Shown here in pieces: positions 1,846 to 32,183 of a DNA stretch of 32,677 nt (position 1 is the first letter of the stretch; each line of letters begins with the position of its first letter). The notes under the pieces were generated by a model. The model was not told the DNA's origin and made no database searches. It worked only from the letters and a program-made list of their open reading frames with translations. This DNA comes from Planctomyces sp. (lineage in GTDB: Bacteria > Planctomycetota > Planctomycetia > Planctomycetales > Planctomycetaceae). The DNA lies in assembly GCA_005791255.1 (NCBI GenBank), contig SXXK01000350.1:1-32677 (forward strand), written 5' to 3'. The position numbers were made by a program, and so were the translations under genes.

Positions 1846-3228
1846 ATGGCAGTGCAGATCACAATTCCTCGGCTTGGCTGGTCGATGGAGGAAGGGACAT
1901 TCGCCGGCTGGCGAAAAGCTGACGGTGATGCGGTGCGTCGCGGCGATGTTCTGTTTGAGCTGGAGGGTGAGAAAGCGCTGCAGGAGATTGAAGCTGTCGA
2001 CGAGGGAACTCTGCGGATCGAGGCAGATGAGCCTGCTGTTGGCGCGGTACTGAAGGTAGGAGCGGTCATCGGCTGGCTGACGGCTGCTGGTGAAACGTGG
2101 CCACCTTCGGTTTCCGGTGGCAGCGGGGGAAGCACGGCGAATTCAGCTGCCGGGGACTCCGCGGTACTCAGTGATGCTGCCGCGGATGTGGCTGCCGCCG
2201 ATGGAGCATCAGGAAGCCCTGCGGTGCGCCGACTGGCTCGGCAGTTGAAAGTGGATCTGCAGCGGGTGAGGGGAACGGGCCGTGGCGGTCGAGTCACCGA
2301 GGACGACGTGCGGTCAGCTGCGGTGCAGCAGCCGGCGGATATCGTTCCGGCAGCAGGCATCAGTGTCAATGTCGCTCAGCGATCGACGCCACGTGCGCGG
2401 CGGGCTGCCCGTATGCACGGAATCGAACTGTCCGGCCTGCAGGGAACAGGCAACGGTGGACGCATTCGCGAAAAGGACGTGCTGGCTGCTGTCGCTGCGT
2501 CCGGCACGCAGCGATCGGCTCGGACGGAAACTGGCCGGACGATCCTGCAGGGGCGGCGTGCGGTAATTGCCCGTCGCATGCGTGAAAGTCGCGATCGCAC
2601 AGTGCCGGTGACCATCACCAGAACCCTGAACGCCGACAACCTGGTCGGCCTGCGCAATCAATTTCGGAGTGCCGGAGCGGAGCCGGTTCCGGCATGGCAT
2701 GATCTGATTGCAAAGCTGACGGCCGAATGCCTTGTGAAGCATCCGTTGGTGGGAACGCGGTGGGTTGGCGACGATGCTGTGTTGCCTGAGCTCCAGTCAG
2801 TCTGTCTGGGGCTGGCGGTTGATACTGCTGAGGGCCTTGTAGTACCTGCTCTGCCGCATGTTCGAACAAAATCCCTGCTGCAGCTGGCGAGGGATTCCCG
2901 GGCAGCAATTCTGAGGGCTCGTGAGGGCCGGCTGTCTTCCGCCGATCAGACGCCCGCGGTATTCACAATTTCCAGCCTCGGTGGTCTGGGAATCGACGCA
3001 TTTACTCCGGTAATCAATTATCCGGAGACGGCTATTCTGGGCGTGGGTGCGATTCGTCGCGTCCCGACTGTGCGGGACGACGATCGAATCGTTGTGGGGC
3101 AGCAACTGACTTTGAGTCTGACGTTTGATCATCAGGTCATTGACGGGGCACCGGCAGCCAGATTCCTGCAGGACCTGGTGCAGTTGCTGGAAAATCCGGC
3201 TGCTGCCCTGCTCTCCGCAGAGACCTGA
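1846..3228 (+). CDS. Dihydrolipoamide acyltransferase (E2) with two subunit-binding domains
   Basis: E2 core of the 2-oxoacid dehydrogenase complex, 460 residues. The lipoyl domain covers about residues 1-80, with the lipoylated lysine likely K43 in EGEKAL (commonly ETDKA in the family). An Ala/Gly/Ser-rich linker follows (about 88-120). There are two successive peripheral subunit-binding domains: about 123-157 (VRRLARQLKVDL..GTGRGGRVTEDDV) and about 180-216 (RARRAARMHGIEL..GTGNGGRIREKDV). The catalytic domain is about 228-460, ending in the active-site motif DHQVIDG (H429, D433). It lies 57 bp after E1 on the same strand. Its TGA is immediately followed by the complement of the stop codon of the convergent sugar dehydrogenase, so there is no spacer. 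The acyl substrate is unknown. Confidence 0.92.
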   Translation: MAVQITIPRLGWSMEEGTFAGWRKADGDAVRRGDVLFELEGEKALQEIEAVDEGTLRIEADEPAVGAVLKVGAVIGWLTAAGETWPPSVSGGSGGSTANSAAGDSAVLSDAAADVAAADGASGSPAVRRLARQLKVDLQRVRGTGRGGRVTEDDVRSAAVQQPADIVPAAGISVNVAQRSTPRARRAARMHGIELSGLQGTGNGGRIREKDVLAAVAASGTQRSARTETGRTILQGRRAVIARRMRESRDRTVPVTITRTLNADNLVGLRNQFRSAGAEPVPAWHDLIAKLTAECLVKHPLVGTRWVGDDAVLPELQSVCLGLAVDTAEGLVVPALPHVRTKSLLQLARDSRAAILRAREGRLSSADQTPAVFTISSLGGLGIDAFTPVINYPETAILGVGAIRRVPTVRDDDRIVVGQQLTLSLTFDHQVIDGAPAARFLQDLVQLLENPAAALLSAET

Positions 3229-4461
3229 CTATTTGTCTGATTTGAATCGGTACAGGCTGCCGAAGGGTGTTGTAAAGTAGACTTCGCCCTTTTCGTCGGT
3301 CCCGAATGACATCACTGGCAGGTTTTCGCCGGTCAGTGAGTAATTCGCTTTCACCTTGTCAGCGGCCATGTCGTAGTCGAGGGCCCACAGTCGTCCAGTG
3401 ACATAGTCGGCGTAGACATATCGTCCGATGAGTTCCGGCACAGCAGTCCCGCGATACACAGTGCCTCCGGTGATGGATTTGCCCACGTCGTGGGCGTATT
3501 CGAAGATCGGGTCTGCAAGGTCCGGTCGTGCTCCGTCGTTGCCATCCGGTCGGAACCAGTGTTTGCCTTCGCGGACATTCCAGCCGTAGTTGCCGCCCTT
3601 TTTGATGATATTGATTTCTTCCCACTGGTTCTGGCCGACGTCAGCTGCCCACAGCAGCCCGGTGGATGTATCAAAGGCCATGCGCCAGATATTGCGGACT
3701 CCGTAAGCATAGATTTCCGGTCGGGCCGGCAGCATTTTTCCTCGCGGGCCGGCAGGGACTTCGCGGCCCACGAACGGATTGTCTTTGGGGATTGCGTAGT
3801 TCAGGCCTGGATCCTTGTTGTCGACGTCAATTCTCAGGATGGAACCCAGCAGGGTGGTCAGGTTCTGACCGTTGCCCATCGGATCGTTGCCGCTGCCACC
3901 GTCACCCAGTGCGATGTAGAGAAACCCATCCGGGCCAAAGGCGATTGTGCCGCCGTTGTGATTCCAGAACGGCTGAGGAATCCGGATGATCTCCTCTTCA
4001 CTGGCCGGGTCAGCAACCGCCGGGTTGTCTTTCGAGACGCGGAATCTTGAGACCTTGCACAGGTGGTCCTGTTCGGTGGAGTTGTAGTAGACGAAGAGTT
4101 GTCCGTTCTGCTGAAACTTCGGGTGGAAGGCCACTCCCAGCAGACCCTCTTCGTTTTGATTGTCGGCATAGACGCAGCGTTCTTCGATGTCGAGGAACAC
4201 GGTGGATTCTTCGCATTCCTGATCGTTTGGGAAGACGCGTATGACGCCTTCCTGCTCGGCCACGAAGACTCGATTTGAGCCATCACCGGCATGTGTGACA
4301 ACGATCGGACGTCGGAAATCGAGATTCGGGAAAGCTCGTTCGGCAGACACGGCCAGGGGAGTGTCGACGACGGCTGGTTTTGTGGATTGCCCGCAGGCAA
4401 CAGAAGCCGCAAGCAGTGTGCAGAGAACAGGGCCCATCAGCCCGGAAGCAAATTTCAGCAT
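3229..4461 (-). CDS. Secreted PQQ-dependent sugar dehydrogenase (glucose/sorbosone dehydrogenase family)
   Basis: 410 residues of the soluble-type glucose/sorbosone dehydrogenase beta-propeller family, which oxidises sugars in the periplasm using PQQ. An N-terminal signal (MLKFASGLMGPVLCTLLAAS) ends near VACG, which could be a signal peptidase I site or a weak lipobox. Family features: an N-terminal blade with RPIVVTHAGDGSNRVFVAEQ, EEGLLGVAFHPKF, FWNHNGGTIAFGPDGFLYIALGDGG, YGVRNIWRMAFD and ADVGQNQWEEINII. A GGAG ribosome site lies 7 bp before the ATG at 4461. It sits 36 bp after xseB on the same strand and is likely cotranscribed. The exact substrate is unknown, and PQQ use is assumed from the family. 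Confidence 0.88.
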   Translation of the reverse strand: MLKFASGLMGPVLCTLLAASVACGQSTKPAVVDTPLAVSAERAFPNLDFRRPIVVTHAGDGSNRVFVAEQEGVIRVFPNDQECEESTVFLDIEERCVYADNQNEEGLLGVAFHPKFQQNGQLFVYYNSTEQDHLCKVSRFRVSKDNPAVADPASEEEIIRIPQPFWNHNGGTIAFGPDGFLYIALGDGGSGNDPMGNGQNLTTLLGSILRIDVDNKDPGLNYAIPKDNPFVGREVPAGPRGKMLPARPEIYAYGVRNIWRMAFDTSTGLLWAADVGQNQWEEINIIKKGGNYGWNVREGKHWFRPDGNDGARPDLADPIFEYAHDVGKSITGGTVYRGTAVPELIGRYVYADYVTGRLWALDYDMAADKVKANYSLTGENLPVMSFGTDEKGEVYFTTPFGSLYRFKSDK

Positions 4462-4497
4462 GTTCTGGCTCCGTGAAGAAGTGGAATGAAGAATTTT

Positions 4498-4875
4498 TCA
4501 GAAGGGCAGCTGGTCGTCGGAGTCACTGGCCGTGCTGCCAGCCTCGCGAGTTCTGCGTCGGCCGGGGGTGACAGACTGGGCGTCCTTTGGCAGTGTGGCC
4601 CGCGCGTCAAACGGGGCTGTCTCAGGGACACCGGCAGCACCGATTCGAGTGACGATCTCGATTCGCTGTGCAGCTTCATCAAGTCGCCTGTGGCAGACGC
4701 GGAGCAATGCCATACCGCGCTCGAATCGCTGCAGTGACTGATCCAGTGGTTCCTGGCCGGACTCCAGTGAGGCAACGATCTGCCCCAGTTCGGCCATGGC
4801 GATCTCCAGAGCGGGTTCGCTGCCGGCATCCGACTGCTCATCGGACTCTTCTGCTGTCAGTTTTTTGCGGGCCAT
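4498..4875 (-). CDS. xseB: Exodeoxyribonuclease VII small subunit
   Basis: Small subunit of exonuclease VII, which with XseA degrades single-stranded DNA in the cytoplasm. With the start at MARKKLTAEES (ATG at 4875) the protein is 125 residues. The core is about residues 25-75 (ALEIAMAELGQIVASLESGQEPLDQSLQRFERGMALL then a helical RRLDEAAQRIE), the two-helix fold typical of a family usually near 80 residues. The extra C-terminal 50 residues are low-complexity and charged. The frame also has an upstream ATG at 4923 and a start-like codon at 4947; neither has a clear ribosome site. The chosen start overlaps the 3' end of the upstream membrane-protein gene by 38 bp, which suggests translational coupling. 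xseA is not in the window. Confidence 0.85.
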   Translation of the reverse strand: MARKKLTAEESDEQSDAGSEPALEIAMAELGQIVASLESGQEPLDQSLQRFERGMALLRVCHRRLDEAAQRIEIVTRIGAAGVPETAPFDARATLPKDAQSVTPGRRRTREAGSTASDSDDQLPF

Positions 4876-5869
4876 GGGTGCATTCAGTGGGATGTTGAAG
4901 GGACAGGCTGCTGTCGGAATCATCGCGGGATGGCTCTGGACTGGCAAGGCTGCTGGCGGAGGATTCCGGGGGGTGTCGTAAAACGTTCTCGGCAGCCGCT
5001 GTCAATCGGGAATCAAGCCACGTGCCGGAAAAAAAACGACCGAGCAGCCAGCGAAATGCCGGCAGCGTCCTGGCGATGGCCTGTTCGGTCTCAGCGGGCG
5101 TCGCCAGTGTGGTGAAACCATCGAGGGTCAGTGAGCAGGCCCATTTTTCGGTGCGTTCAAATTCGCGAGCACGATCCAGCAGCCGTTGTGCCCAGATCAT
5201 CCCATAAATGTCCTGGAACAGCAGCCACAGCTGTGTGGTTTGCTGATGCAGCGAAGCTGACTGTCGCAGTCGAGCGTGGTGCCGATTGAGGCAGCGACCG
5301 GCGAGGACGGTCGCCAGCAACTGAACGGACGCAGCCGACAGGAAGAGCCACGGTGCGCGGGGCAGCCATGGAACCACAGGGCTGACGGCTGTCAGTGTGG
5401 TTCCCAGCTGCAGCAGGCAGGCGACGGTCATTCCGCGTCCAAGTCCGGGAGCGGTGCTCATCAGTGCCACGAGTAAAAAACCGCTGAGTGCCGGCAGACT
5501 CAGCTCAATCGGTATGCGGCCCCGTGAGTTGACAATCTGGATGGCTCCCGGCCACGCCAGCACGAAAACCAGCGGAAGCACCACAAACCACTGCCATGCC
5601 GCAACGCCGGGACGCCGAGCTCCCAGCAGACACACGGCCGGTGTCAGCATCAGAATCGCCGCCAGGTACTGCAAACCGGATGTCAACGCAGGATTCAGCA
5701 ATGCGAAAGGGCCGGACAGGACTGCGGCTGCCAGCAGAACGAGGGCGGAGATCTGTGTCCAGCACCACGAATACACCGAGGTCATCCCGGTATGCAGGGG
5801 GCGTTGTCGCAGCACCTGCCAGCAGTTCATGGCTGCCAGTCCGGTCATCAGCCATGCGTATGCCGACAT
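4838..5869 (-). CDS. Integral membrane protein of unknown function
   Basis: I do not recognise a named family. From the ATG at 5869 (MSAYAWLMTGLAAMNCW) it has 343 residues. About seven hydrophobic segments fill the first two-thirds, for example near ISALVLLAAAVL, YLAAILMLTPAVCLLGA, WFVVLPLVFVLAWPGA, LSLPALSGFLLVALMS, MTVACLLQLGTTL and WLFLSAASVQLLATVL. A soluble, helical, charged C-terminal part follows (QTTQLWLLFQDIYGMIWAQRLLDRAREFE and beyond). The frame stays open upstream to 6082, but the extra 71 residues are Arg/Pro/Ala-rich and non-membrane, so the 5869 start is preferred. Its 3' end overlaps xseB by 38 bp. The C-terminal tail past about residue 300 is Ser/Asp-rich. Confidence 0.75.
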   Translation of the reverse strand: MSAYAWLMTGLAAMNCWQVLRQRPLHTGMTSVYSWCWTQISALVLLAAAVLSGPFALLNPALTSGLQYLAAILMLTPAVCLLGARRPGVAAWQWFVVLPLVFVLAWPGAIQIVNSRGRIPIELSLPALSGFLLVALMSTAPGLGRGMTVACLLQLGTTLTAVSPVVPWLPRAPWLFLSAASVQLLATVLAGRCLNRHHARLRQSASLHQQTTQLWLLFQDIYGMIWAQRLLDRAREFERTEKWACSLTLDGFTTLATPAETEQAIARTLPAFRWLLGRFFSGTWLDSRLTAAAENVLRHPPESSASSLASPEPSRDDSDSSLSLQHPTECTHGPQKTDSRRVR

Positions 5870-17291: not shown

Positions 17292-17337
17292 TTTGTGTTC
17301 CGGTACCTGCAGGGTTGATCAGTCGTCCGGGCAGCGC

Positions 17338-18810
17338 TCAGCCCAGGGCCATTGTGACGGTTTTCAGTTCGGTGTAATTGGCCAGTCCGGCTTCGCCCAG
17401 TTCGCGTCCCAGACCGCTCATTTTGAAACCGCCGAACGGCGCTGCAGCGTCGAAGACGTCGTAGCAGTTGATCCACACGGTGCCGGCTCGCAGTTTGTGA
17501 GCCAGAGCATGGGCTTTGGCACCATCGCGAGTCCACACGGCAGCAGCGAGTCCATAGCTGGTGTCATTGGCTCGCAGTGTGACTTCGTCGGTGCTTTTGA
17601 ACTTCAGAATGCTCATGACTGGTCCGAAGATTTCATCACGGGCGATATCCATCTGGTCGGTGACACCGGTGAATACTGTGGGCTCGATGAAGTAGCCTTT
17701 GCTGCCGACACGGTTGCCGCCGGCCACGCAGGATGCTCCCTCGCTGCGACCGCGATCGATGTAGTTCATGATTTTTTCAAATTGTGCCTGATCGACCTGC
17801 GGTCCCTGTTTGGTGTTCCTGTCGAAGGGATTTCCGACCCTGCGTTCGCGGGCTCGAGCGACGACTTTGGCGACAAACTCATCATGCACGGATTCTTCGA
17901 CGAACAGTCGGCTGCCGGCACAGCAGCACTGACCCTGGTTGAAGAACAATCCGAATTCAGCGCCAGCGACTGCTGCATCCAGATCGGCATCGGCGAATAC
18001 GATGTTGGGGCTTTTGCCGCCAAGTTCGAAAGTGATTCGCTTCAGTGTTTCGGCGGCTTCCCGCATGATGATCCTGGCCGTATTGCCTTCTCCGGTGAAG
18101 GCAATTTTGTCGACCATGGGATGTCGAACGAGAGCAGCGCCGGCGGTGGGTCCGTAACCGGGTACCACATTGATGACGCCGGGTGGAAATCCGGCTTCCA
18201 AAGCGAGTTCGGCCATCCGCAGGCAGGTCAGCGGAGTCTGCTCGGCCGGCTTCATTACGATTGTGTTGCCCGCAGCAAGTGCCGGACCCCATTTCCATGC
18301 AACCATCAGCATGGGGAAGTTCCAGGGGATGATCTGTCCGCAAACGCCGACTGGTTCCCTTCGTGTGTAGCAGAAGTAATTGCCGCGGACAGGAATGGTG
18401 CTGCCCTGAATTTTGTCAGCCCAGCCACCGTAATATCTGAGGCAGTCGATGACCAGTGGCAGGTCGGCGGCGCGGGAGTCACCGATGGGCTTGCCATTGT
18501 CGAGTGTTTCGAGCGCGGCCAGTTCATCGAAGTTGGCTTCGATGAGATCAGCCAGTTTTGTCAGCAGTCGGCCGCGATCACGGGCATCCATACGGGACCA
18601 CGGGCCGGAGTCGAAGGCCTGCCGGGCAGCGCGAACGGCCAGATCAATGTCAGCAGCGTCGCCTTCGGCAACTTCACAGATCACGTCTTCCGTGGCGGGA
18701 TTGACAGTGGAGAACGTTCGGCCGCTGATCGCGGGCTGAAATTTGTCTCCGATCAGGATTCCCGTCTGGCGGACAGCGGGTGGGGCAAAATCGGCGGTGG
18801 CTGTGATCAT
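17338..18810 (-). CDS. NAD(P)-dependent aldehyde dehydrogenase
   Basis: Oxidises an aldehyde to the acid, class 1/2 ALDH superfamily, cytoplasmic. It has 490 residues from the ATG at 18810 ([17 protein letters not shown]). An AGGAG ribosome site lies 7 bp upstream, which decides this start over the open frame to 18951. Family landmarks: [10 protein letters not shown] (N164), VMKPAEQTP (K187), FELGGKSPN (general base E262) and [11 protein letters not shown] (nucleophile likely the middle Cys, C296). The cofactor loop is FTGEGNTAR, where most relatives have FTGSTEVG, a local oddity. The C-terminus [28 protein letters not shown] is typical. Substrate unknown. It is transcribed alone and converges on recQ. 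Confidence 0.93.
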
Positions 18811-18943
18811 GCGGCAACTCCTGTAAGTGTCAAGAAGGACGCGGGTCTGTCCGGAAGACTGCCGGCACAGACTTGTCAGGTACCTGATTATGGGCACTTC
18901 GCTCAGGAAATGCGAACGCGAAGGCACCATGGGCGCAGCAAAA

Positions 18944-18972
18944 CGCCCCACACTGCCGGGCAGTGCGGGGCG
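18944..18972 (-). terminator. Rho-independent terminator of the FKBP gene
   Basis: A near-perfect hairpin of at least 12 bp: arms 18944-18955 and 18961-18972 with one mismatch that becomes a U-G wobble in the minus-strand RNA, loop CCGGG. On the minus strand it is followed by TTTTGC. It starts about 30 bp after the FKBP stop codon, so it ends that transcript before the aldehyde dehydrogenase gene. Confidence 0.75.
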
Positions 18973-19005
18973 AAATTGCAGTTGATGGAAGTCCCCGGAA
19001 GACGA

Positions 19006-19719
19006 TTATTCGTCCTTGGATTCCAGCAGGTGAATTTCAAAGACCAGCACTTCGTTTGGACCGATGGAACCACCGGCGCCCCGCTCACCGTAAGCCAGTT
19101 CGCTGGGGATGAACAGGCGGTAGTGTGAACCGGTCTTCATCAACTGCAGCGCTTCGGTCCAGCCCTTGATGACCTGAGTCACGCCGAAGGAAACCGGTTC
19201 ATCCGCATCGGTCGGAGCTTCGCCCTTGTAGGATTCGTCGAAGACTGTGCCATTGAGCAGTTTGCCGCGATAGTGGGTTTTCACGGTGCTTTTGGCAGTC
19301 GGGACAGCGCCGTCACCTTCCTTGACGACGAGGTACTGCAGGCCGGACTTAGTGGTCCTGACGCCTTTTTTGGCTTTGTTTTCGTCGAGGAACTTCTGGT
19401 TTGCGGTGAGCTTGGCGGCGGATTTGGCCTTGGCCATTTCTTCGATGGCAGCCTGCACATCTTCCGGTGAAATGGCGGATTTTTCGCCTTTCAGGGCAGC
19501 GGCAATGCCGGCGGCGATGGTCTGGGCATCGAGGTCGAGACCTTCACGGCGAATGCTGGAACCGATATTGTAACCGATCCCGTAGCTGGCCTTATCTTTG
19601 GTGGATTCCAGCTTGATTGCCGGTTTGTCGGCAGGTTCATCAGCCGCGAGGGCCAGTGCTGAGAGCAGCACCAGAGGGGCGGCGGCAAGGCGGGCATACC
19701 GCATCGAGACACAGAACAT
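19006..19719 (-). CDS. Secreted FKBP-type peptidyl-prolyl isomerase
   Basis: Catalyses proline cis-trans isomerisation and aids folding outside the cytoplasm. It has 237 residues from the ATG at 19719, chosen for its AAGGA about 7 bp upstream. A signal peptide covers about residues 1-24 (RLAAAPLVLLSALALA). Next comes the helical dimerisation domain of FkpA/Mip-type proteins (about 28-125: KDKASYGIGYNIGSSIRREGLDLDAQTIAAGI then Lys/Ala-rich helices). The FKBP_C domain follows from about 130: GLQYLVVKEGDGAVP, VKTHYRGKLLNGTVFDESY, VIKGWTEALQLMKTGSHYRLFIPSELAYGERGAGG and IGPNEVLVFEIHLL. A good hairpin terminator follows. Alternative start: ATG at 19704, five residues inside. Confidence 0.93.
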   Translation of the reverse strand: MFCVSMRYARLAAAPLVLLSALALAADEPADKPAIKLESTKDKASYGIGYNIGSSIRREGLDLDAQTIAAGIAAALKGEKSAISPEDVQAAIEEMAKAKSAAKLTANQKFLDENKAKKGVRTTKSGLQYLVVKEGDGAVPTAKSTVKTHYRGKLLNGTVFDESYKGEAPTDADEPVSFGVTQVIKGWTEALQLMKTGSHYRLFIPSELAYGERGAGGSIGPNEVLVFEIHLLESKDE

Positions 19720-27712: not shown

Positions 27713-28519
27713 ATGACTGCGCAGGTGCTTCAGGGGCGGCATGCGTTTGTGACCGGCAGTACTCAGGGAGTCGGTCTGGAGATTGCGGCGGCGCTGCATG
27801 GTGCGGGGGCTGCCGTTGTGCTGCACGGGTTGCGCAGTGATGCTGCTGCGTTGCTGGCAGCGGAGCGTTGCGGGGGCGTGGACTGCCCTGCCCCGCTGAT
27901 CTGCTGTGATCTGGCGGACCCGATGCCGGAGGGGCCGCTGCAGGCTGCAGTGGCGGCACTGCACCAGAATCCGCAGATTGATCTGCTGGTGTGTAATGCT
28001 GGTACGTTTATTGATCAGCCATTTTTGGATATGCCGCTGGAAGTTTTTGATCGAACGATGAAGCTGAATGTGTATTCGCAGTTTGTGCTGATTCAGCATT
28101 TTGCCAGGCACTGGGTATCGAATGGCGTGCGGGGGCGAATTCTGGTGACAGGCTCAATCAACGGTCGGTTGTCTGAGCAGACGCATGTGGCTTACGACGC
28201 ATCGAAGGGTGCGATTGATGCGATGGTGCGATCACTGTGTGTTTCGCTGGCTCCGCTGGGGATTCGCATCAACGGGATGGCCCCGGGACTGTTTCGGACT
28301 CCGCTGACCGAGCCGGCTCTGCAGGATGCTCGTTTTCGTCGCTGGATGGAGTTGCATACTCCGAACGGCGTCGTTCCCGGTCCTGAGGTTTGTGGTGGTA
28401 CGGCCGTGTTTCTGCTGAGTGACGCGGCTGAGCACATTCATGGCCAGATGCTGCTGGTGGATGGTGGCATGAGTGTCTGGCAGCAGCCTGATCCTCCGGC
28501 GGAATGGATGCGTGGGTAA
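27713..28519 (+). CDS. Short-chain dehydrogenase/reductase (SDR)
   Basis: NAD(P)-dependent oxidoreductase, classical SDR, 268 residues from the ATG at 27713 (MTAQVLQGRHAFVTG). Rossmann glycine motif TGSTQGVG near residues 15-22, VCNAG, and the catalytic triad Ser in VTGSINGRLSEQTH with YDASK downstream. C-terminal GAPGLFRTPLT-like segment (reads GMAPGLFRTPLT) and HGQMLLVDGGM are standard. The gene starts 10 bp after uxaE, so the two are probably translated from one message and act in one pathway. A ketouronate or sugar-acid reductase role is inferred from that neighbour only. Confidence 0.9.
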   Translation: MTAQVLQGRHAFVTGSTQGVGLEIAAALHGAGAAVVLHGLRSDAAALLAAERCGGVDCPAPLICCDLADPMPEGPLQAAVAALHQNPQIDLLVCNAGTFIDQPFLDMPLEVFDRTMKLNVYSQFVLIQHFARHWVSNGVRGRILVTGSINGRLSEQTHVAYDASKGAIDAMVRSLCVSLAPLGIRINGMAPGLFRTPLTEPALQDARFRRWMELHTPNGVVPGPEVCGGTAVFLLSDAAEHIHGQMLLVDGGMSVWQQPDPPAEWMRG

Positions 28520-28635
28520 GGTGTTTGTGCGCAGCAGGGATCGCAATGGGGGGGGGTGACGCTGTTGCCGCTTCGCTTCGCGCTTTTGAAGAGCCTGCCA
28601 CCTTTTTAAGCTGGGTGTCGCGAAACTGGCAATGA

Positions 28636-28654
28636 ATCCGGCAACACGCCGGAT
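28636..28654. other. Perfect 7-bp stem-loop beside the duplicated segment
   Basis: ATCCGGC (28636-28642) and GCCGGAT (28648-28654) with loop AACAC. It has no T tract on either side, so it is not an obvious terminator. It lies 12 bp before the left direct repeat and 117 bp after the SDR stop codon. Confidence 0.45.
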
Positions 28655-28666
28655 GAAATGAATTGC

Positions 28667-28753
28667 CCCCAGCCTCGCCGCAGGGTCAACTGATGATTTC
28701 CCGGCGGTGAAGAAGACTCGGTTATCCGTGCTGTCTGCAATGCTTTAAACTGC
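28667..28753 (-). pseudogene. Decayed duplicate of the 3' end of the VWA gene (left direct repeat)
   Basis: Direct copy of 30350-30489. Bases 28667-28709 match 30350-30392 with two mismatches (28678-28679), including 29 identical bases at 28681-28709 that cover the VWA stop codon and last codons (minus strand, HRREIIS stop). The copy then jumps 49 bp: 28710 onward matches 30442 onward (AAGAAGACTCGG and a diverged tail to 28753). The missing 49 bp lie between two copies of CCGGCGGTG (30384-30392, 30433-30441). The deletion shifts the frame, so this is a dead fragment. Confidence 0.85.
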
Positions 28754-29588
28754 CGTCAGACTTCCATGCACCCGGAAGGCGGGCTAAGACGATTACCGAG
28801 CAACATGCGACCCGGTGACAGGGGCGGAAGGCCCACTGCTGAGGCGTTTTTTGCCAGTCGTGGCGGAAACGGGACTGTCACGGTATCGCAATGGAATGGC
28901 CAAATTCCCAAATAGCATCTCCGCTGCCGAAATGGTTCGCTCAAGTCTGGCTGGACCTGGCACTGCTGTACTACCGCGAGATACCGAACACTTGAACGTC
29001 AATGATCAACGCACCGGGAGTTGATGCTGGACGGGGATCTGCCTTCGGCGAGGCGATGCAGTACGAGGAGATGTTTTGTGCGTCTGCAGGGGTGCTAATC
29101 TGTATTGCTTGAGTACTCCACTCCAGGGTGTCATGCGGGTGGCTATGTGTCAATTTGCAGTACGATGCATGCGTCAACACGTGCAGGTTTCTGAACAGCT
29201 CGAAATTCCGAAGAGATGAAGACTCTCTTGTCCTGATGTGAGTCGGGATCGTTTCGTGAGAGACCGTTGAACATGCCGGTCGTGGTAGTTGTGCGGATTT
29301 TTCAAGCCACAAGGAGCAGTGCGACAGCGTCTGTGTCTCACTCATGATTGATAAAATGCAGATATTGTTTTGATTGAGTGCTACTGCGTGTGCCTGGGCA
29401 TAGCCGGACGGCTGGATGCTTCGAGGATTTCAATTTATGTTAAATTTGTATGTAAGGCAATCCGCCGCGGAGTTTCCTGGCGAGTAAGGCATGGGTTCTG
29501 CTGTCTGGCGATCTGCTTAGCGCCGTGTTGGCTGCTGAGTGTAGTGTGTAGTTAGGAATTATTCGTGCGTCTGCCCGGAGTTGCGTAT

Positions 29589-30233
29589 ATGCTTAGGATG
29601 AATGCGTCGGCGTTATGCTTATTTTTTGTCTTCTTGCTGGATGAGGGGATGCTTTCAGCCGGCGTGATTGTTTTTAATTCAACGAATGGACACCACTACG
29701 AGTTAGTGTCCGATTACGTAACGTGGGGGGATGCAAACGCGGCGGCCAATGCGAAAAGTTATAATGGTGTGACTGGTCATCTGGTAACTGTAACAAGTGC
29801 TGCTGAAAACAAGTTTCTCACTAGCTTAAGCTCATCCATGCATGCTTTATCCGCCGCATCTGGTTGGTGGATGGGTGGCTATCAGCCGCAGGGTTCCGCG
29901 GAGCCAGCGGGCGGGTGGTCATGGGTAACGGGGGAACCGTTTGTGTATAATAATTGGTTTCCGCCGTCCGAGCCTAATAACTTTGGCAATCAGGACAGCA
30001 TAATGTTCGCTCACCTGGTGCTGGCTGATGGGAAGGCATGGGATGATTTTATAGGAACTAATAATGGTGCAGGTTATATTGTTGAGTATGACACTCCTTT
30101 GCCGTCATCAGCGACAGTGCCAGAACCAGGCTACTGGGTTGCGGTTCTGAGTGCGATCGTCGTCTGTCGTGCAAAACGTTCTTCGCTCAGGTTGCTGCAG
30201 TCGGGATTAGGCATGTTGACCGTCCGGGCGTAA
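29589..30233 (+). CDS. C-type-lectin-like PEP-CTERM protein
   Basis: About 214 residues from ATG 29589 (MLRMNASALCLFFVFLL, signal peptide). GTG at 29565 with AGGAA 6 bp upstream is an equally possible start adding eight residues. The mature part is a C-type-lectin-like domain: NGHHYELVSDYVTWGDANAAANA, GHLVTVTSAAENKFLTSL, WWMGGYQ, GGWSWVTGEPFVYNNWFPPSEPNN and GYIVEYD. WVTGEP..NNW..EPNN is the typical core; disulfide cysteines are absent. The C-terminus carries VPEPGYWVAVLSAIVVCRAKRSS, a PEP-CTERM sorting signal with a further 20 residues after the basic part. Codon use is A/T-richer (many TTA, ATA, AAT) than the neighbours. Likely a surface adhesin or matrix protein. Confidence 0.82.
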   Translation: MLRMNASALCLFFVFLLDEGMLSAGVIVFNSTNGHHYELVSDYVTWGDANAAANAKSYNGVTGHLVTVTSAAENKFLTSLSSSMHALSAASGWWMGGYQPQGSAEPAGGWSWVTGEPFVYNNWFPPSEPNNFGNQDSIMFAHLVLADGKAWDDFIGTNNGAGYIVEYDTPLPSSATVPEPGYWVAVLSAIVVCRAKRSSLRLLQSGLGMLTVRA

Positions 30234-30349
30234 GTCGTGGCAAGTACGGCGCCACGCGATTGCGATTGTCGATTTTGAAGGCCGCTGACCGCGTGGTAAG
30301 TAAGGCAGGAGTGCGCTATCGGGCGTCGGTTTGCAGCGAGCCGATCTCG

Positions 30350-30489
30350 CCCCAGCCTCGTTGCAGGGTCAACTGATGATTTCCCGGCGGTGTCCGACGT
30401 AATCCCAGACGACGTAGCGGTCAAGATCGCGTCCGGCGGTGAAGAAGACTCGGCCACCCGTGCTTTCTGCCAGTCGATGCGCAAACTGC
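30350..30489. repeat. Right direct repeat (intact 3' end of the VWA gene)
   Basis: Intact counterpart of the decayed copy at 28667-28753, same orientation. It covers 19 bp downstream of the VWA stop codon plus the last 40 or so codons. It contains the two CCGGCGGTG copies (30384-30392 and 30433-30441) that bound the deletion seen in the left copy. Together the repeats bracket about 1.6 kb including the lectin-like gene. Confidence 0.8.
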
Positions 30490-32183
30490 ACGTCCTCGTG
30501 GCTTTGTGACCACGACGGAAGCAGGAAAATGTTGATTGTGATGTTCTCACGGCGGCACAGCATGCCTTCGCGTCGAGTTGCCTCCTCGGTGCGCGGATCC
30601 GGCGGATAAAGCATATACAGCAGATGCTGTTCGAAGTGCGCTGTGGGCAGGCCGTCCGTGATCAGGATGATCTGCCGATTCGGGGTATCCTGAGGTCCCA
30701 GGAGCTGGCGGGCCAGCTGCAGGCCGTGCTGGATATTGGTAAAGTGCGGAGGGATGTGAACTTCACTGACGTCCTGACGACTCATGTCGGCCCGCAGTCG
30801 CACCACGGGGCTGGTGATGGTTGGGATCTTCGGCATCAGGGAAATCAGATCACCGGGCGGAACCAGTCGCGCAAACGTGTGCAGCTCGATGAACCGCAGA
30901 TAGTCTCCGGGAAATTCCGAGGTGATCAGTCCATTCAGGGCCAGTGCCATCCGCTTGACGTTGATGTATTGGCCGTCGTAGCGCATGGAACCGCTCATGT
31001 CCATCAGCACGGTGGTGGCACAGCGGGGGTTGTTGCGAGTTCGATGCACTTCTATATCGCGGGAATGCAGTCGCAGCGGGCGGTCAGCTCCCTGACGCAG
31101 CATGGCATTGATCAGTGAACCTGGCAGGTCAATCTGTGCGGTGGCATCACCGAATTCCCACGGACGCGTCCGTTGCAGTTCGACAACGCCGTCACCCTCC
31201 ACCGGCCCCTGATGACGCCCTGAGCGTGATGCCTGCAGGTCGCTGAAAATGCGTTCCAGCAGGCGACCCTGAAACAGTTTATAGGCCTTCGGTGACAACT
31301 GAACGCGTCCATTGCCACCGCTCAAACCCTGCTGCTCCATCAGATTCTTCAGGTGCTGCTGGATCTGTTCCTGAAATGCCGACAGCTTTTGCACAGTCTC
31401 CGGATCGGCAAATTCACTGAGCTCTTCGAGGTCAATGACAGCAAGCCGCGCGTTCTTTTTCGCTTCTTCCAGCTGCTTCAGCAATTCATCGATCTGCTGC
31501 AATTCCTGGTAAACCTCGATGGCCTGTTCCACCGTCAGTGCCTGAGTCCCGGTGAATTCGTATTTGGAGGCGAGCATATCGACCTGGTATTTCTCGCCCA
31601 TCGTCTCCATCAGGGCCGGAAGTCGGGCGGCAAAGTCCGGGTCGACTCGTTCTGCCCGATACCACAGGTTTTCCAACTGGTACAACTGCTCGCTGCGGAT
31701 CGCGTTCCAGAACGATTTCGAGAACTGTCCGGGAGGCCGGGCCTGCCGAGCAGCCTCGGCCATTCGCTTGACCGTTTTTTTGCGAACCGTCTGAGTTTCC
31801 CATGTGGCCAGAATCTTCTCGCGACGCTCCCGCAGCATTCGCAGCAGGGAATCGAGGCTGGGGCCCAGGCCTGGAAACTGACCTGGGTCCAGGCGAATTG
31901 CGTTCGCCAGTTCCTCTTCGGTCAATTCCCGCATCGACCCCCATTCCAGCATGTGCTCGAATGCCTGAGAGACCAGATCGGGGGGCGGATCGCCGGGGGG
32001 CGGAAACTGCTGTGGGTCATACTGCTGGTAAATGTGCACGACGCCACCGGGCACTGCAGTCCGGGCAGAATGTTGACTGGCACCCTGAGATTCGCCGGAT
32101 TCATTCTCAGTCTGGTTCACAGGGACAGCCTTTGGTGCAGGATTGGATGCCGGTCGTTCAAGCGGTTCACGGTGCCGTGGCAC
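30369..32183 (-). CDS. VWA-domain (CoxE-like) protein
   Basis: Up to 604 residues. The C-terminal von Willebrand A domain has a complete MIDAS: DMSGSM at about 395-400, a Thr/Ser region near 460-480, and ITDG at about 508-511, followed by a terminal FLLPSWSQSHED..FFTAGRDLDRYVVWDYV. The N-terminal 390 residues are mostly helical and charged, with a coiled-coil-like stretch (IEVYQELQQIDELLKQLEEAKKNARL). Such proteins usually work with a MoxR-type AAA+ ATPase as metal-dependent chaperones or insertases; none is in the window. The start is uncertain: GTG 32183 has no ribosome site, while GTG 32120 has AAAGG 8 bp upstream. Its 3' end is duplicated at 28667-28753. Divergent from the hemD-like gene. 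Confidence 0.87.
   Translation of the reverse strand: MPRHREPLERPASNPAPKAVPVNQTENESGESQGASQHSARTAVPGGVVHIYQQYDPQQFPPPGDPPPDLVSQAFEHMLEWGSMRELTEEELANAIRLDPGQFPGLGPSLDSLLRMLRERREKILATWETQTVRKKTVKRMAEAARQARPPGQFSKSFWNAIRSEQLYQLENLWYRAERVDPDFAARLPALMETMGEKYQVDMLASKYEFTGTQALTVEQAIEVYQELQQIDELLKQLEEAKKNARLAVIDLEELSEFADPETVQKLSAFQEQIQQHLKNLMEQQGLSGGNGRVQLSPKAYKLFQGRLLERIFSDLQASRSGRHQGPVEGDGVVELQRTRPWEFGDATAQIDLPGSLINAMLRQGADRPLRLHSRDIEVHRTRNNPRCATTVLMDMSGSMRYDGQYINVKRMALALNGLITSEFPGDYLRFIELHTFARLVPPGDLISLMPKIPTITSPVVRLRADMSRQDVSEVHIPPHFTNIQHGLQLARQLLGPQDTPNRQIILITDGLPTAHFEQHLLYMLYPPDPRTEEATRREGMLCRRENITINIFLLPSWSQSHEDVQFAHRLAESTGGRVFFTAGRDLDRYVVWDYVGHRREIIS

Follow-up and report, generated by a model that had tools for sequence, protein, structure and literature searches.

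How did the gene for a secreted, lectin-like protein come to lie between two direct copies of the 3′ end of its neighbor, a VWA-domain gene? The locus is found in a stretch of 32,677 nucleotides (here, the window), which is the entire contig C322 of a MAG (88% complete, 542 contigs, 5.58 Mb) whose relatives are unclassified or Fuerstiella-like Planctomycetaceae. An original prediction, made from the letters of the window, read the repeats either as the attL/attR scar of an inserted and now decayed element or as a duplication with later insertion. Comparison with related sequences gives good support to an insertion accompanied by partial duplication of the VWA 3′ end. The features of the locus are collected in Table 1.

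Table 1. Features between and around the SDR and VWA genes (window coordinates).
Feature	Position	Strand	Basis or remark
SDR-family oxidoreductase gene, intact left neighbor	27713..28519	+	Pfam adh_short_C2 3.4e-45; adjoins VWA in seven relatives
147 bp from SDR stop to left repeat	28520..28666		No match in own genome or relatives
Left, displaced, decaying copy of VWA 3′ end	28667..28757 (core 28667-28738)	-	49-bp deletion between CCGGCGGTG 9-mers
Gene-poor part of insert	28758..29588		No recognized gene, no VWA homology
C-type-lectin gene	29589..30233	+	Pfam Lectin_C; composition; G002 homologue
Insert or intergenic DNA, lectin stop to right repeat (116 bp)	30234..30349		No match in relatives
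Right repeat: native 3′ end of intact VWA + 19 bp downstream of stop	30350..30494	-	Alignment; 84.8% identical to G007
VWA-domain gene, intact, single copy in genome	30369..32183	-	Pfam VWA_2; orthologues across class

The repeat at the VWA 3′ end

The predicted 43-bp repeat was confirmed. Positions 28667-28709 and 30350-30392 match in direct orientation at 41 of 43 positions, with two mismatches, and the repeat spans the VWA stop codon (TCA at 30369-30371) together with 19 bp past the stop. Its extent had been described incompletely. A second, collinear block (28701-28738 against 30433-30470) is identical at 34 of 38 positions, and a gapped alignment unites both blocks, pairing 28667-28757 with 30350-30494 across a 49-bp gap in the left copy. 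The left copy is clearest over its core and fades by about 28757, past which the alignments gave no statistical support for homology; the right match covers 30350-30470 and extends up to about 30494. In the right copy, the edges of the gap coincide exactly with two CCGGCGGTG 9-mers, so the left copy must originally have spanned 121 bp or more of the VWA 3′ end. To judge from these edges, a deletion between short direct repeats would be expected to produce just such a 49-bp loss. On its minus strand, the left copy still encodes IADSTDNRVFFTAG, where the homologous C terminus of VWA reads LAESTGGRVFFTAG.

Searching the repeat against the whole 5.58 Mb genome returned two copies only (E about 8e-13). 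A widespread genomic repeat, which the original prediction had named as a possible confounder, is thereby ruled out, as the sole other copy is VWA itself. To determine which copy is native, both were compared with relatives. Over its final 145 bp, the VWA gene was 84.8% identical to that of G007, against 74.5 to 88.6% along the remainder; the end lies within this range, so distant DNA has not replaced it. At most of the positions in the second block that distinguish the two copies, the right copy agrees with the relatives and the left is derived. A native VWA end and a right copy that agrees with the relatives together indicate that the left copy arose in this lineage and then decayed. The idea that 28758-29560 holds the remains of a second VWA gene, decayed throughout, was rejected, as local and anchored alignments scored within the range of shuffled sequences. 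Profile searches also gave no VWA match above the inclusion threshold beyond the known fragment, which is weak support, as the profile included two wrongly oriented rows.

The insert and its lectin gene

The segment between the repeats had been described as gene-poor and richer in A/T, and this was borne out by a GC content of about 0.48-0.53 over most of its length vs 0.58-0.60 in the flanks. The non-VWA part had no match elsewhere in its own genome. Among the 17 genus relatives, the only match was to the lectin gene, in G002 and at another locus. As the outer 147 bp and the inner 116 bp (30234-30349) match nothing, the edges of the insert can be placed only approximately; its length is about 1.6-1.8 kb. 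Transposon insertion was not supported: the ends of the insert carry no inverted repeats, and the repeat is far longer than a usual target duplication. No RNA gene or tRNA that could have served as an insertion target was found in the window. Elsewhere in the window, a 611-aa open frame (17293-19128) runs antisense to an aldehyde dehydrogenase gene (17338-18951, minus strand); Pfam gave no match for this frame, which is probably a side effect of codon composition.

The lectin reading frame is real, as its Pfam Lectin_C match scored 26 bits against a cut-off of 22.6. The frame is open from a GTG at 29565, and the ATG at 29589 is the likelier start. Inspected by eye, the protein has a hydrophobic, signal-like N terminus and a VPEP tail resembling that of PEP-CTERM proteins; an NCBIfam search gave no match backing a PEP-CTERM assignment. 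The gene is foreign by composition. Its GC3 was 0.519 against a mean of 0.654, and both GC3 and codon score fell within the lowest 0.6% of 538 ORFs, among which SDR and VWA were typical. The comparison of codon bias with the flanks that had been proposed thus marks lectin as a compositional outlier.

The closest lectin homologue was found in G002 at an unrelated locus, with 66% amino acid identity. Codon positions 1 and 2 of the pair were 78-81% identical, position 3 only 28%. Lectin is intact, and the concentration of differences at third positions shows that it has been kept under protein-level selection; saturation of these positions made dS incalculable. At the G002 locus (L067, G002:C826), the homologue shares one frame (3228-4265) with a second secreted-protein-like segment, and an integrase-core transposase ORF (rve-like, by eye) lies nearby at 4639-5481. 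The scanned viral contigs held no lectin, and phages and plasmids yielded only distant lectin-domain matches below 42% identity.

The empty site and possible routes of insertion

The original prediction anticipated an empty site in related genomes, and seven relatives have it (G007, G016, G003, G008, G009, G013, and G002). All of them have SDR and VWA in convergent orientation, separated by a few to about 80 bp; VWA has a single 3′ end, and no lectin gene intervenes. In G007, the closest relative (VWA 90% identical), the gap is about 20 bp and the VWA 3′ end single; in the window, the two stop codons are 1.85 kb apart. Together with the foreign composition and the restriction of the repeat to this locus, the empty site supports the predicted inserted segment. 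A contig misjoin between strain variants, or another artefact of assembly or binning, deserves some thought, as the window makes up one entire contig of the 542 in this MAG, and a second example (below) has its repeat at a contig end. However, both flanks extend into gene order found in relatives, and the left copy has lost 49 bp and differs by several substitutions, so it did not arise by copying of assembled sequence. We therefore hold an artefact to be very improbable.

The att reading takes the repeats as attL and attR: an element would have entered the VWA 3′ end, rebuilt the gene end, and since lost its integrase gene. The geometry is exactly that of such sites: direct repeats that include the stop codon, an intact gene on one side, a 3′ fragment on the other, and relatives with an empty site bearing a single copy. 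Other observations count against it. Lectin is the only gene recognized in the insert by Pfam, and, in agreement with the earlier remark that no integrase was visible, neither the DNA between the repeats nor the scanned genes of the window yielded a recognizable recombinase or trace of one (by Pfam; 28520-29600 in six frames by eye only). None of 75 other planctomycete VWA loci had a second copy of the 3′ end, which rejects this end as a recurrent att site. For an att core, a repeat of at least 121 bp is also long. The VWA 3′ end resembles its G007 counterpart no less closely than other parts of the gene do and shows no sign of replacement by element DNA. Moreover, at the second example, the copy joined to the whole gene runs into native downstream DNA rather than element DNA. 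Site-specific integration at VWA draws its support from geometry alone and is unproven; we consider a lost-integrase element unlikely, and this part of the original prediction was not supported.

Its other proposal, a duplication with later insertion, could still hold: the VWA 3′ end would first have undergone a short tandem duplication, and lectin would then have been inserted independently between the copies, or the order was reversed with a partial deletion. Direct repeats outnumbered inverted ones by 35 to 4 in the 0.91 Mb of the genome that was sampled, suggesting that short tandem duplications are common in this host, and nothing dates the duplication and the insertion to the same time. 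In contrast, two rare events would be needed at one spot, and then the same pair again at the second example. The bare duplication was seen in no relative; indeed, the relatives offered no intermediate of either kind (duplication without lectin, or lectin without duplication). Two separate events are a possible but less than probable origin.

We favor a non-site-specific insertion-duplication by recombination that placed the lectin segment between SDR and VWA, and give it about an even chance. A foreign segment of roughly 1.6-1.8 kb, bearing the secreted C-type-lectin gene, would have been gained between the convergent genes after the host lineage split from its closest sampled relative. One junction would have used or copied the VWA 3′ end, while the other would have been illegitimate. 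On the VWA side, the route may have been homology-facilitated illegitimate recombination (HFIR), or single-crossover integration of a small circle carrying a VWA 3′ end. Either would leave an intact VWA, the lectin segment, and on its far side a superfluous piece of the VWA 3′ end. No longer under selection, this piece has decayed, losing 49 bp between the two 9-bp repeats and gathering substitutions.

Insertion-duplication requires a stretch of host homology in duplicate on either side of the foreign segment, and such a stretch is present. Neither the host genome, nor the 17 genus relatives, nor the viral contigs scanned contained donor DNA joining a VWA 3′ end to lectin, an absence that is weak evidence. 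The insertion, the duplication, the decay of the left copy, and the foreign composition of lectin are demonstrated; the mechanism and its operation in a single event are inferred. Ku was not detected in the host MAG (88% complete), and Ku-dependent end joining was set aside on this ground. A ComEC-type protein is present in the host genome. ComEC is widespread, and its presence proves nothing about competence. Taken together, the undetected Ku and the ComEC-type protein make uptake plus recombination at least possible.

A second locus and known systems

A within-contig repeat scan of the host genome covered 60 other contigs, then 91 stretches, amounting to 0.91 Mb (about 17% of the genome) plus the window. 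It revealed one further clean duplication of a gene 3′ end around cargo, on contig C198 (L203, G000:C198). The 3′ end of a gene encoding 679 aa occurs at 2438-2656 and 4493-4708 with 96% identity, such that the last 185 bp or so of the gene and 34 bp downstream recur 2 kb on. Between the copies lie an HTH gene and a GNAT-like ORF. This pair is a candidate toxin-antitoxin-like module, and the GNAT ORF looks shortened or frame-shifted relative to G010. Both G010 and G007 have the 679-aa gene without the insert. The HTH gene is found elsewhere in G010 and G006; in G010 the GNAT gene comes after it, in G006 a short match to GNAT.

The C198 copy joined to the whole 679-aa gene runs into downstream DNA that is conserved in relatives. 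The contig breaks off at the second copy, and the gene that comes next in G010 has its orthologue only at the beginning of contig C63, which leaves this case unfinished. Applied to 1.14 Mb of loci from relatives and other planctomycetes, the same scan gave no such case; this comparison is small and was made after the fact. The duplicated ends of VWA and the 679-aa gene share no similarity, and a motif common to both was sought and not found. Unrelated targets and cargo at the two loci fit poorly with a single sequence-specific integrase. Other repeats were also encountered in the host, including a 184-bp near-tandem duplication among the direct repeats (L300, G000:C23, 3976-4541). In L186, L203, L218, and L226, short repeats of the types CCACAGAGGGCACAGAGG, GGGGCGAGGGG, and CGTAGCTCGGGCTTTCCAGCCCGAGC appear again and again in intergenic DNA.

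Two unrelated cargo/target pairs (lectin with VWA, HTH-GNAT with the 679-aa gene) within about 17% of the genome raise a broader idea. The lineage might repeatedly gain single genes or gene pairs behind resident genes, duplicating roughly 120 to more than 200 bp of the 3′ end and leaving the resident gene whole, with no dedicated integrase. We regard such a route as decidedly doubtful.

Comparable loci are known in other prokaryotes. In Escherichia coli, Staphylococcus aureus, and Streptococcus pyogenes, direct repeats flank 10-18% of the gene-sized variable segments termed microdiversity loci (PMC2884548). Like the lectin locus, these hold a gene-sized segment that is present in one genome and absent in relatives, with direct repeats at a conserved locus. 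However, most of their repeats are shorter than 30 bp, whereas the lectin locus has at least 121 bp, formed by a duplicated gene 3′ end beside an intact native gene. HFIR and single-crossover integration of small linear or circularized DNA are documented (PMC3240628), and displaced genes or gene ends in Vibrio T6SS clusters have been proposed as remnants of such insertions (PMC5361080). There too, a new gene arrives by a homologous anchor and the old gene or gene end is kept downstream of the insert. The lectin locus differs in having the end of the same gene on both sides and no donor found. Integrative elements in the 3′ ends of protein-coding genes, such as the thaumarchaeal set (PMC6563490), likewise show direct repeats over the 3′ end and an empty site in relatives. 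Unlike those elements, the lectin insert is very small, has a long repeat, and shows neither a recombinase nor recurrence at its target.

The lectin insert is best described as a genuine scar of insertion, of a kind already broadly known, and not as a demonstrated mobile element. The event appears ordinary in kind, with a small chance that it reflects a recurrent route of gene capture. Its value lies in a clean, phylogeny-placed example of a gene for a secreted protein entering the chromosome without an evident mobile element, the scar of which is still readable. If the C198 case is genuine as well, a genome-wide survey of duplicated 3′ ends could reveal whether these bacteria have here a preferred and harmless way of adding genes.
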